Notes under the pieces: model-generated
Databases searched by the model: none
Seen by the model: only the letters and a program-made list of their open reading frames with translations
What the model was told of the DNA's origin: nothing
Part shown: positions 23,670-27,229 of the stretch, piece after piece
How positions within the stretch are numbered: the first letter of the stretch is position 1
Layout of the letters: every line of letters begins with the position of its first letter
NCBI GenBank assembly: GCA_012031965.1
Contig: JAAUSC010000055.1
Coordinates: 1 to 36,310, forward strand
From: Scytonema sp. RU_4_4
GTDB lineage: Bacteria; Cyanobacteriota; Cyanobacteriia; Cyanobacteriales; Nostocaceae
DNA length: 36,310 nucleotides
Direction: 5' to 3'
Made by a program: the position numbers and the translations under genes

Positions 23670-24695
23670 TTAGCTGTTAGCCAAAATCAACGCAACTTCT
23701 TTAGCAAAGTAAGTCAAAATTAAATCAGCACCCGCCCGTTTCATACTGGTCAAAGTCTCTAAAATCACCTTTTTCTCATCAATCCAGCCCATTTGAGCAG
23801 CAGCTTTAATCATGGCATACTCTCCACTGACGTTATAAGCTGCTACAGGCAATTGCGTGTTATTTTTGACTTGACATATAATATCCAAATATGCTACTGC
23901 AGGCTTTACCATCACAATGTCTGCGCCTTCTGCAATATCCAGCGCCACTTCCTTAATAGCTTCTCTTGTATTAGCCGGATCCATTTGGTAAGTCTTCTTA
24001 TCCCCAAACTTCGGCGCAGAATCCAACGCATCTCGAAATGGACCATAGTATGCAGAAGCGTATTTTGCAGAGTATGCCAAAATACGCACATCTATGTATC
24101 CTTCTGCATCTAGTGCTTTACGAATAGCCCCCACTCTGCCATCCATCATGTCAGAAGGTGCGACCATATCTACCCCTGCTGCGGCTTGGCTGACTGCCAT
24201 TTTCACCAGGACTTCAACTGTGGGATCATTGAGAATGACGCCATTTTCATCAACAATACCGTCGTGACCGTGAGTCGTAAAAGGGTCAAGAGCAACATCG
24301 GTAATGACTAGGATATTTGGTATTGCTTGTTTAATTGCCTTGACAGTTTGCTGTACCAATCCTTCTGAGTTGTAGCTTTCACTACCCATGTCGTCTTTCT
24401 TTATTTCTGATATTACTGGGAAGAGTGCAACCGCTCCTACCCCCAGTCGCGACACTTCTGCTATTTCTTGAAGCAGTAAATCTAAAGTATATCGATAACA
24501 CCCAGGCATAGAGGTAATTTCCATTTTCTGTCCTTCACCCTCCATGACAAACATGGGATAAATCAGGTCATCGACACTCAGCGTTGTTTCCTGGACCATG
24601 CGACGTAGGGTCGCAGTGCGACGCAGGCGACGGGGGCGATGAATGAGGGTAGTAGTAGGTGCAGTGTTATTAGAAGAAGGATTTTCTGATGACAT
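23670..24695 (-). CDS. hemB: Delta-aminolevulinic acid dehydratase (porphobilinogen synthase), zinc-independent type
   Basis: This 341-aa enzyme joins two 5-aminolevulinate molecules to porphobilinogen, the first common step of haem, chlorophyll and bilin synthesis. The Schiff-base lysines are Lys211 (AYSAKYAS) and Lys264 ([11 protein letters not shown]). The metal-site segment 133-146, [14 protein letters not shown], fits the DXALDX(Y/F)X3G(H/Q)DG pattern and lacks the three cysteines of zinc-dependent enzymes, so catalysis should not need zinc. The frame extends 24 codons upstream, but MSSENPSS at 24695 is preferred because the extension would run through the Zur-like box at 24722-24736. 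It is the last gene of the metal-related cluster. Confidence 0.93.
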
Positions 24696-24721
24696 GGGAT
24701 TTGATTGTGATCTATAAATAA

Positions 24722-24736
24722 TGATAATCGTTTTCA
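24722..24736 (-). promoter_or_regulatory. Zur/Fur-like box upstream of hemB
   Basis: TGATAATCGTTTTCA matches the 7-1-7 motif TGATAATNATTATCA at 12 of 14 defined positions and is centred 34 bp before the hemB start. The same half-site, TGATAATCGTT, occurs in front of the GTPase gene at 27215. By eye it fits Zur as well as Fur. Binding is not shown. Confidence 0.6.
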
Positions 24737-24783
24737 AGAAACATTTTTTGTTTCCAGGTAAAACCAAAGAAAATTAACAGTTC

Positions 24784-25542
24784 CTAGCTCTCATTTGAAA
24801 CCGTCTTGGTTTTGCTGACTCCAAAACCCTTTTTTTCTCCGTAGCGGACAGTCCGGAATTCCACTTGGTTTGTGTTTGGGTTGTAGAGAGTATAGGTTGC
24901 TTCCCCAAGAGTGCGTCCCACATTCCCCACCCCGATGACTTGACACGGCGAAACGTTAATAATTTGGGGAGATGCTTGATTATCGAGGGTTGTAACTTGT
25001 GTAGTGATAGAACCTGCTTGTAATTGATATTGAAAAGTCAAGCCAGAACGACCACAAAATAGGTTATTCGCTTGCATCCGCGATAACCTATCCAACATTT
25101 GGATGGGAGGAGTTAGAAGTGTAAGTTCTTCGCTAACAGATACAGTTGAACCATGAATTAATAGACAATCCAACTCGAAAAACCCAAAATCAAGGTTTCG
25201 CAACCACTGTACTGTCTGACGGGAAACACTATCCCACAGTAACTTCACAGTTTCTCCTCCATATTTCGCTATCAACTCCGTTGGTTCCCCAGTAGCACCA
25301 AGACCATGCAAAATCAAACACTGTTCTTCCCACCATCCCTTACATACAAGCGGTTCTAATTCACCAAGTCGGGGGTTACGGACTCTTTCCACCAGTTGTT
25401 CAGATTCTTTCGTTGGTCCGACGACATCGCCGAGAATATATAATGCCTCCACAAAACGACTCTGACGTTTAATATCTGCCATCACCGCTTCATAAGCCTT
25501 AAGATTACCTTCAATTCCACTTAAAATTGCCCATTTAGTCAT
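24784..25542 (-). CDS. Degenerate metallophosphoesterase-like protein
   Basis: The 252-aa protein has the calcineurin-like phosphoesterase fold pattern, but nearly every metal ligand is changed. The usual SDIHGN is SGIEGN (Asp to Gly9, His to Glu11), the GNHD-type motif is KGWWEE (Asn to Trp70), and GHTH is GRSG. Only LGDVVG with Asp39 and LLIHGS remain. A classical two-metal phosphatase activity is therefore unlikely, and a regulatory or partner role is a better guess. It lies 64 bp after the sister phosphoesterase and 88 bp before hemB, on the same strand. Confidence 0.8.
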   Translation of the reverse strand: MTKWAILSGIEGNLKAYEAVMADIKRQSRFVEALYILGDVVGPTKESEQLVERVRNPRLGELEPLVCKGWWEEQCLILHGLGATGEPTELIAKYGGETVKLLWDSVSRQTVQWLRNLDFGFFELDCLLIHGSTVSVSEELTLLTPPIQMLDRLSRMQANNLFCGRSGLTFQYQLQAGSITTQVTTLDNQASPQIINVSPCQVIGVGNVGRTLGEATYTLYNPNTNQVEFRTVRYGEKKGFGVSKTKTVSNES

Positions 25543-25606
25543 TGGTTATTTGTTATTAGTTGTTGGTCATTTGTCAAGATTTTTTTTTGACTTTTTACTT
25601 TACGTG

Positions 25607-26419
25607 TTATCTCGTACATACATGGGTCGGGTCATCTGCACGTTCTGCAAACTCCATTCCCTGTGCTAAACGCCAAGCAAAAATAGCAGGTAAGCCCTTT
25701 TCGATAATCGCTTTTACGGTTTTGTGATAATCGTAAGGTACTTCCCGTAATATGACTTCTTGAGTGTTAGTGTCGTAAATCACATAAGTGGCATTAGGTC
25801 GCCCATGTCGAGGTTCTCCTACCGAACCGACATTGACAATCTTTTTCAGGGGTGCTGTAAAAGACCTTTCCTGTTCTTTCCAGTTGTCAGTTGTGATACG
25901 CACTTGTAAATGAGCTGCATCTAAGGTACGAACATAAGGCACATGAGTATGACCGCAAAACAATACATCGCTTTCTGTGGAAAGTACGCGCTCTAGTGCT
26001 ACAAAAGCATCAAGTTCTGGTAACAAATACTCGTGGTTGCTGTGAGGACTACCATGAACAAACGCCATGTTCCCTTCACGGAAAGTATGGGGTAATTGGG
26101 CGAGAAATTCGCGATTTTCTGGATGAATTTCCTTGTTAGTCCACTCGTGAGCTAATTTTCCCCGCTTCTCGGCTAAAAGAGAAGGAAAGCTACACTCGCA
26201 AGAATTCAATCCCTCGACAACATCTTCATCCCAACAACCAGCGACGGTAGTAATATTTAAGGAACGAATTTGCGCCACCACCTCATTAGGATAAGGACCA
26301 TATCCTACCAAATCACCCAGACAATAGAGTTTTTCGCATGAGTGCTTGTCGATATCCAGCAAGACAGCATTCAAGGCGTCATAGTTGCTATGAATACATG
26401 ACATGACCGCTATTTTCAC
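25607..26419 (-). CDS. Metallophosphoesterase family protein with cysteine ligand changes
   Basis: This 270-aa calcineurin-like phosphoesterase belongs to the COG0639-type group. It keeps His10, Asp36 (LGDLVGYGPYPNE), VHGSP and CGHTHVPY, but the first aspartate is Cys8 (SCIHSN) and the GNHD asparagine is Cys62 (AGCWDED). Both positions normally bind the metals, so the site may prefer a thiophilic metal. It starts with GTG, and the first four bases overlap the end of the GTPase gene, so translation is coupled. Substrate is unknown; relatives act on phosphate esters or dinucleotides. Confidence 0.85.
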   Translation of the reverse strand: MKIAVMSCIHSNYDALNAVLLDIDKHSCEKLYCLGDLVGYGPYPNEVVAQIRSLNITTVAGCWDEDVVEGLNSCECSFPSLLAEKRGKLAHEWTNKEIHPENREFLAQLPHTFREGNMAFVHGSPHSNHEYLLPELDAFVALERVLSTESDVLFCGHTHVPYVRTLDAAHLQVRITTDNWKEQERSFTAPLKKIVNVGSVGEPRHGRPNATYVIYDTNTQEVILREVPYDYHKTVKAIIEKGLPAIFAWRLAQGMEFAERADDPTHVCTR

Positions 26420-27207
26420 GCTTCTATCTCCTCAAGTAAGATTTGTTTTACCTGTTGTTGATATTGCCAAATTGCAGCGTCTGACAAACAACAATCTTCC
26501 AAAGTTTGCTGCATTGCGGCTTCGTCCAAGTTTTGTCCGCACACTTCTATCCCACTAAAGTGTTGGGGTCTACCTTCGAGATGACGGGGTAAGTCTAATT
26601 CTAGAAAATCGGTTGATGGAACGCCTGCGGCGAAATCAGCGTAAAGCGATCGCCCATCAGCAACATCAAAAATCCCCTTAGCACGGGTGACTTGACCATA
26701 AGCGCCGTGAGTGATTTCGTACCAAAACTCGTGCAAACTATCTTCGTCAATCACTTGACTTGTGGTTGGGACGCGCCATAGCTGGGTGGGGGTAATATTA
26801 GTATCAATGGCTGCTCCTGGAACAATCTCCTCTGCCCAAGAATGATACTCAGAGTCTTGGAGATGGGGTGGCAGGATGGCGATCGCACGATACGATAAAT
26901 TATCTAGCATTGGCGCTACGGCATTCAGTTCTAAATAAAACCCCAGTTCGATATAAACAGCATCTGCTGTTGCTAGTTGGTTGAGAAACTCAACTTCTTG
27001 TCCGTCACGAAAGACTTTAACAGCAGGAAATTCTGTAGCAAGGCGAGTTTGGTCGATCGGAACATTTCCAGTTCCAGGACTGAAATACACTACATGACTC
27101 GTAGTGACACCACCAGTAGCAGCACTACAAGCTATTTGTTGAGTCATCCAAGTGGTTTTTCCAGCGCCTGCTGAACCTGCGACAACAGTAATTTTGGGTT
27201 GAGTCAT
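26416..27207 (-). CDS. COG0523/CobW-like GTPase, divergent
   Basis: This 263-aa protein has a P-loop (GSAGAGKTT, residues 11-19), a Walker-B-like strand ending AVYIELGF and a C-terminal segment (GAYGQVTRAKGIFDVADGRS) like the CobW C-terminal domain. COG0523 proteins are metal chaperones that use GTP; several are induced by zinc limitation. The usual CXCC metal motif is absent; Cys residues occur only in EVCGQ and EDCC near the C-terminus. It overlaps the phosphoesterase gene by 4 bp and has a Zur-like box 8 bp before its ATG. The assignment to COG0523 is moderately firm. Confidence 0.75.
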   Translation of the reverse strand: MTQPKITVVAGSAGAGKTTWMTQQIACSAATGGVTTSHVVYFSPGTGNVPIDQTRLATEFPAVKVFRDGQEVEFLNQLATADAVYIELGFYLELNAVAPMLDNLSYRAIAILPPHLQDSEYHSWAEEIVPGAAIDTNITPTQLWRVPTTSQVIDEDSLHEFWYEITHGAYGQVTRAKGIFDVADGRSLYADFAAGVPSTDFLELDLPRHLEGRPQHFSGIEVCGQNLDEAAMQQTLEDCCLSDAAIWQYQQQVKQILLEEIEA

Positions 27208-27214
27208 AAAATAA

Positions 27215-27229
27215 TGATAATCGTTATTA
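27215..27229 (-). promoter_or_regulatory. Zur/Fur-like box before the COG0523-like gene
   Basis: TGATAATCGTTATTA matches the TGATAATNATTATCA dyad at 12 of 14 defined positions. It ends 8 bp before the ATG, so a bound repressor would cover the transcription or translation start region. Zur control of COG0523 genes is established in Anabaena; for this gene it is inferred. Confidence 0.65.

Follow-up and report, generated by a model that had tools for sequence, protein, structure and literature searches.

The contig JAAUSC010000055.1 of Scytonema sp. RU_4_4 (assembly GCA_012031965.1), which was analysed over its full length of 36,310 nt and is called the window below, carries on its minus strand four genes that very probably form a zinc-starvation operon belonging to the Zur regulon. 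The last gene encodes a zinc-independent-type porphobilinogen synthase (HemB2), while the first three form a core referred to here as GTPL, PE1 and PE2. The genes, the boxes in front of them, the substitutions in their products, the conserved order of the trio and its shared presence or absence are all seen directly in the sequences. The elements of the locus are as follows:

26416-27207, minus strand: GTPL (GTPase-like), a P-loop protein of COG0523/G3E-like fold with a CobW_C domain, lacking CxCC and NKxD
25607-26419, minus strand: PE1 (phosphoesterase-like 1), metallophosphoesterase fold, with Asp replaced by Cys8 (motif I), Asn replaced by Cys62 (motif III) and an extra Cys74-x-Cys76
24784-25542, minus strand: PE2 (phosphoesterase-like 2), a PE1 paralogue in which most metal ligands are gone; probable pseudoenzyme
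23670-24695 from ATG, minus strand: hemB2, zinc-independent-type porphobilinogen synthase; the listed TTG open reading frame (ORF) extends to 24767
27215..27229, no strand assigned: Zur/Fur-type dyad before GTPL, TGATAATCGTTATTA on the plus strand, 7 nt upstream of the GTPL start
24722..24736, no strand assigned: Zur/Fur-type dyad before hemB, TGATAATCGTTTTCA on the plus strand, 26 nt upstream of the hemB ATG

Organization of the operon

An earlier note on this DNA had described four co-directional genes, two of them with overlapping start and stop codons, and this arrangement is found: four ORFs lie on the minus strand, and PE1, which starts with GTG, overlaps GTPL by 4 nt. For hemB, the ATG at 24695 is preferred because the TTG start would place the dyad within the gene. 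The HemB product matches PF00490 (Pfam, 1.4e-150). In agreement with the note, DxALD...GHDG replaces the zinc cysteines, and the protein is therefore classed, on its sequence, as a zinc-independent-type porphobilinogen synthase. The same type of segment occurs in 31/31 fetched HemB2 rows (two rows being repeats). A second hemB, looked for at the suggestion of the note, is indeed present in the genome and is of the zinc type; its product is 58% identical to the window HemB and keeps the zinc cysteines in DTCLCEYTSHGHCG, so that the possibility that both HemB proteins are zinc-free was rejected. The same kind of zinc-sparing HemB pair is described for Pseudomonas putida in the accessible text of PMC2770081.

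Conservation of the trio in cyanobacteria

In an order-level sample of 148 genomes, with cut-offs for strong matches set by eye and genome numbers entered by hand, strong matches numbered 77 for GTPL, 76 for PE1 and 76 for PE2; of the 79 genomes with at least one of the proteins, 74 contain all three. Of the 74 trio genomes, 63 have a zinc-free HemB2, compared with 31 of the 74 others (p 6e-8, uncorrected for relatedness). Since the sequences are related, the tallies and Fisher p-values given here and below do not stand for independent events. Gene order was surveyed in 82 regions, or 79 once two repeats and an additional stretch from a genome already represented had been dropped. GTPL, PE1 and PE2 are consecutive among the marker genes in 60 of these regions and lead directly on to HemB2 in six, and at least one zinc-island marker is present in 62/79, a generous count that includes weak Znu matches (about 24-37% identity). 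Removal of ORFs shorter than 80% of the query length left 76 GTPL, 76 PE1 and 67 PE2 sequences; two plasmids are counted twice (L093 = L153 and L096 = L147), so that 76 corresponds to 74 distinct loci. The overlap between GTPL and PE1 measures exactly 4 nt in 54/74 loci.

A further set was selected by PE1 and comprises the best 80 of 400 relatives, taken from named genomes. Here the trio is consecutive in 73 loci and runs straight on to HemB2 in 13, with at least one zinc-island marker in 56. The seven loci with the closest PE1 among the best 80 (L197-L203, from Brasilonema, Scytonema, Pelatocladus and Iningainema) have the order GTPL-PE1-PE2-HemB2. The trio often lies near hemB2, folE, thrS, hisI, COG0523 or znu genes (the cyclohydrolase labelled FolE2 in the scans is the type I family FolE, PF01227). 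On plasmid A of Trichormus variabilis ATCC 29413, for instance, znu genes and hemB are followed by thrS, DUF1636, COG0523, a methyltransferase, hisI, a small protein, GTPL, PE1 and PE2. Several copies of the trio are located on plasmids, and the content of the zinc islands varies among loci. HemB2 lies within 8 kb in 27 of the 80 PE1-selected loci, on which ground a role in tetrapyrrole synthesis only was rejected. The note had proposed metal handling or tetrapyrrole supply for the two phosphoesterase-fold proteins; the tetrapyrrole-specific alternative is less favoured, as the trio often stands near folE, thrS, hisI, COG0523 or znu genes with no hemB close by, and metal handling is retained.

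The trio also extends beyond the order. In a phylum sample, the PE1 profile finds matches at E <=1e-30 in 76/292 genomes; nine of these are weak matches from one family, and the six that were inspected all have canonical ligands. Among strong carriers outside the order, GTPL-PE1-PE2 is kept in 20/20, and the Cys8 and Cys62 motifs of PE1 are present in all eight of the 20 that were inspected. Few marker genes are found near the trio in these loci. Fifteen of the 20 carriers, with genomes of 1.7-2.9 Mb, look like marine picocyanobacteria by kinship as well as by size.

Some neighbours recur around the trio. At L093 (5930-7195) and frequently elsewhere, GTPL has as its divergent neighbour a gene for an FAD/NAD(P)-binding protein, and this gene may also belong to the zinc-starvation set. 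A gene for a WD40-repeat protein comes after a COG0523 gene in several zinc islands, such as L095 (9966-12001). Cyanobacterial-type GTPL, PE1 and HemB2 are also carried by a contig that is filed under Candidatus Gracilibacteria (L274) and is probably mis-binned.

Zur/Fur-type boxes

The dyad AATGATAATCGTT occurs in exact form twice in the window, at 24720 (before hemB) and at 27213 (before GTPL), which is where the note had placed its two copies; at up to two mismatches, it has eight window matches against 1.29 expected. Box scans were made with the 15-mer TGATAATNATTATCA, which we take to be the pattern of the Anabaena literature and which, at up to three mismatches, matches the window nine times against 2.53 expected. 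Over the whole genome, a relaxed 15-mer at up to one mismatch shows no enrichment (31 forward and 24 reverse matches, compared with 48 and 40 for a reversed-pattern control). A single weak box therefore means little, and the case rests on the comparison across genomes. The cyanobacterial Zur core AATGATNATCATT, taken from the accessible part of PMC9337993, has three window matches at up to one mismatch against 0.17 expected, namely the two operon dyads, each of which differs from it by one mismatch, and a site at 7774. The dyad before GTPL overlaps a promoter-like -10 hexamer ending at 27217, in a promoter and terminator scan that stays overall at chance level (8 vs 7.4 and 4 vs 3.6 expected, respectively).

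In the relatives, the 15-mer at 11/14 or better is found within 250 bp upstream of GTPL in 57 of the 76 loci, 18 of them perfect, against 3.15 expected from shuffles. The same scan gives 5/76 for PE1 (2.0 expected) and 8/67 for PE2 (1.1 expected); a separate box may thus precede PE2 in some loci. A stricter scan (300 bp, 12/14 or better) used 78 GTPL matches, its filter differing from that of the 76-locus set, and divergent neighbours can share one box in it. It finds a box before GTPL in 52/78 cases, before HemB2 in 22/30, before ThrS in 9/12 and before ZnuA in 7/11; the rate for GTPL is thus comparable to that of known Zur-type genes of the same loci. The FAD protein gene, in many cases divergent from GTPL with one box common to both, scores 25/33, PE1 0/76 and PE2 5/68, and random windows of the same loci 63/1640. 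Outside the order, a box at 11/14 or better is present in 14 of the 20 loci (0.72 expected), and nine match at least 11/12 of the core (0.02 expected). A chance origin of the dyads was rejected, their position being conserved in relatives. The zinc-limitation reading of the note is supported both by this recurrence of boxes at the same place and by the conserved neighbourhood, whose absence from relatives the note had named as a refutation.

Residues that set GTPL, PE1 and PE2 apart

CobW_C (1.6e-5) is the sole match of GTPL above the Pfam cut-off and is found in 24/27 members of the family at E <=0.01, and the P-loop GxxGxGK[TS]xW is present in 66/76. For comparison, 44 COG0523 proteins of the same loci were picked for being at least 45% identical to two reference members of COG0523. 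All 44 contain the P-loop, CxCC and [NT]KxD, whereas CxCC occurs in 0/76 GTPL sequences and [NT]KxD in 5/76. The GTPL structure model (pLDDT 89.8) has YjiA as its best Foldseek match (E 4.7e-8); the top three matches are all YjiA entries, two of them titled zinc-bound. GTPL therefore shares with the COG0523 zinc metallochaperones (YjiA 1nij, 4ixm, 4ixn) the P-loop, CobW_C and the best structural match, but it is much shorter (about 258 aa) and differs in both motifs. What the note had called a COG0523-like GTPase stands as far as the fold and CobW_C are concerned, while canonical COG0523 membership was rejected; judged by its motifs, GTPL is COG0523-like and not a canonical member.

PE1 belongs to Metallophos_2 (Pfam, 8.2e-21). 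Its nearest solved relative is 3rqz from Sphaerobacter (1.9e-37), and the Ap4A hydrolase Spr1479/SapH (3qfm) is among the closest structures. Fold and most motifs are like those of 3rqz and 3qfm, but PE1 has Cys in place of the motif I Asp and the motif III Asn, plus an added CxC. Cys8, Cys62, Cys74, Cys76, Cys268, His129 and His205 are invariant (76/76), whereas the outgroup phosphoesterases have Asp8 and Asn62 in 6/6 and Cys at 76 or 268 in 0/6. The canonical set of metal ligands is thus incomplete, Cys8 and Cys62 having been swapped in and the other main ligands kept. On average, a PE1 protein contains 9.4 Cys and 10.5 His. In the structure model (mean pLDDT 74.4), residues 64-78 fall below 50, which makes the surroundings of the CxC too uncertain for geometry.

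PE2 has no Pfam match in the window scan, and among its relatives weak Metallophos_2 matches appear in 3/27. A PE2 query retrieves PE1 at 31% identity, from which the two proteins are taken to be paralogues. The motif I, III and V ligands of 3rqz and 3qfm are gone in PE2: the ligand places are occupied by Gly8 (67/67), Glu10 (64/67), Trp62 (57/67), Arg157 (67/67) and Gly159 (64/67), and of the main ligands Asp36 and His122 alone persist (67/67 each). PE2 is accordingly a probable pseudoenzyme, and the changed metal ligands that the note had read in both phosphoesterase-fold proteins are confirmed. Archaeal phosphoesterase relatives with altered sites also exist, to judge from the Pyrococcus proteins 1nnw and 2gju, which are among the near structures and have NIAGN in place of the canonical DxHGN.

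Relation to known Zur regulons

The Zur regulon of Anabaena sp. PCC 7120 includes all4722 (COG0523), thrS2 and hemB2 (PMC6103462, accessible part), and all4725 serves as a high-affinity Zur target (PMC10957091, likewise in part). As in the present genome, a COG0523-type gene is combined there with a second hemB beside a zinc-type hemB. In contrast, the phosphoesterase pair is absent from the entries seen in PMC6103462, and the first gene of the present operon does not encode a canonical COG0523 protein. In some cyanobacteria, Zur sites precede two COG0523 genes, according to the accessible text of PMC2770081. In Synechococcus sp. PCC 7002, hemB-II, folE-II, G0131 (GTPase-like) and G0132 are raised in a zur mutant and upon zinc chelation (PMC4628125, accessible part). 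The 7002 cluster on plasmid pAQ7 (hemB-II, folE-II and G0129-G0132) is the same kind of zinc island as that of the window, and G0129-G0131 occupy the place that the trio has in PCC 7117. The trio genes are complete in PCC 7117 and in the window, whereas Synechococcus/Picosynechococcus PCC 7002 holds remnants: only GTPL residues 1-147 and about residues 117-246 of PE2 are recognisable on pAQ7 (L094 7610-9381), and PE1 is not detectable on this plasmid, where an unrelated 708-nt ORF is annotated between the two pieces. That a studied strain has only remnants may be one reason why the trio has been overlooked. Zur control of COG0523 and hemB2 genes has already been published for other cyanobacteria. 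For the GTPL-PE1-PE2 core, no paper was found in an open-access library, judged from listings, and the lists of COG0523 Zur sites in PMC2770081 might include GTPL.

Zinc starvation versus iron response or passenger genes

Several observations weigh against the zinc-starvation reading. In the stricter scan, box rates are low before COG0523 (9/37), FolE (6/35) and ZnuC (2/16); no good box lies immediately before GTPL in 19/76 loci, in some of which folE, COG0523 or hemB2 is directly upstream; and Fur and Zur boxes are similar in sequence. Moreover, neither G0129 (annotated as a phosphoesterase) nor G0130 of strain 7002 had elevated expression in the zur mutant, according to the accessible part of PMC4628125. 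Because the trio is broken in 7002, this expression result is no clean test of an intact trio, yet it gives the trio no support. The accessible part of the Zur study in WH8102 (PMC9337993) does not mention a GTPase or phosphoesterase, and carriage of the trio by WH8102 is unchecked. Neither study thus favours a zinc role for the phosphoesterases.

The likeness of Fur and Zur boxes, together with the three Fur-family genes of the genome, raises the alternative that the dyads are FurA (iron) boxes and that the operon responds mainly to iron. Genes for a TonB receptor, ExbB and ExbD a few kb off on Picosynechococcus plasmids would fit such a role. The genes near the trio are, however, znu, thrS, hisI, folE and hemB2, and hemB2 is a Zur target in two studied strains, as stated in the accessible parts of the respective reports; mainly iron-responsive control appears distinctly improbable. 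It is harder still to credit that the three genes merely travel with zinc islands as passengers and have no zinc role. The plasmid-borne copies and variable island content suit a passenger, but the box sits before the trio's own first gene and is retained in the small genomes outside the order, where few marker genes are found nearby. The zinc-starvation reading is thus preferred, with Zur as the protein that we infer to bind the dyads.

A possible metal-handling role of the trio

When zinc is sufficient, Zn-Zur would occupy both dyads and repress the operon. At low zinc, GTPL, PE1 and PE2 would be made, as would HemB2 from its own box, and HemB2 would keep tetrapyrrole synthesis going in place of the zinc enzyme HemB1. 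GTPL, a nucleotide-binding relative of COG0523 proteins without the CxCC site, would act on PE1, whose former phosphoesterase pocket (Cys8, Cys62, perhaps Cys74 and Cys76, and the retained His and Asp) would hold zinc or a replacement metal for delivery, while PE2 might be a structural partner with little or no metal bound. That the three proteins form a metal-handling complex, in which PE1 holds the thiolate metal site lost by GTPL, is a tentative proposal, in which physical association, metal binding and the direction of transfer are inferred. The reading as a split metallochaperone is the most coherent one, since GTPL is without the COG0523 metal motif and its constant partner PE1 has gained an invariant cysteine site. 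In its full form, with the nucleotide motor (GTPL) and the metal carrier (PE1) as separate proteins, accompanied by a pseudoenzyme and under Zur control across cyanobacteria including lineages with small genomes, it is somewhat unlikely to hold.

Further points speak against metal handling: the overall TM-score between GTPL and YjiA is low (0.31), Cys74 of PE1 aligns with Cys in 4/6 outgroups, and His10, Asp36, His122, His157 and His159 are invariant in PE1. With these retained ligands PE1 may still be catalytic, which makes an enzymatic PE1 a serious rival. It would then be a working phosphodiesterase, related to the SapH-type asymmetric Ap4A hydrolases, whose metal site is re-tuned and partly thiolate and which removes a nucleotide formed under zinc shortage or replaces a zinc-dependent phosphatase, with PE2 and GTPL as modulators. 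The place of Spr1479/SapH among the closest structures agrees with this proposal, whereas 76/76 PE1 sequences have Cys at the two ligand places where 6/6 outgroups have Asp and Asn, and an obligate COG0523-like partner would be unusual for a plain hydrolase; we regard an enzymatic PE1 as unlikely. The five invariant cysteines (8, 62, 74, 76 and 268) could also point to an iron-sulphur cluster or to a thiol redox or metal sensor for which GTPL would serve as the signalling NTPase. The retained phosphoesterase His and Asp ligands and the presence of zinc genes, not iron-sulphur genes, in the neighbourhood make such a function improbable. Finally, the richness of PE1 in Cys and His would suit a zinc store or buffer instead of a delivery system, but induction by a repressor at low zinc would fit storage poorly, given the known logic of Zur, and the P-loop protein would be left unexplained, so that storage seems very improbable.

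Which partners COG0523-type chaperones work with, and which clients they serve, is to our knowledge still to be settled. The split-metallochaperone reading makes the trio a compact, conserved candidate with predictions at the level of residues, in particular Cys8 and Cys62 of PE1 and the missing CxCC of GTPL. Should PE1 indeed carry metal, it would be a case of a phosphoesterase fold converted to metal transfer.

Other features of the window

A perfect Zur/Fur-type core, AATGATTATCATT, lies at 7774-7786, approx. 290 bp upstream of a gene for an orange carotenoid protein (PF09150, 8075-9034), which is followed by a gene for a fluorescence recovery protein (PF18032, 9170-9496). Approx. 2 kb from the operon, an IS200/IS605-type pair at 29423-31139 consists of a Y1 transposase gene on the minus strand and a gene for a TnpB-like protein on the plus strand.

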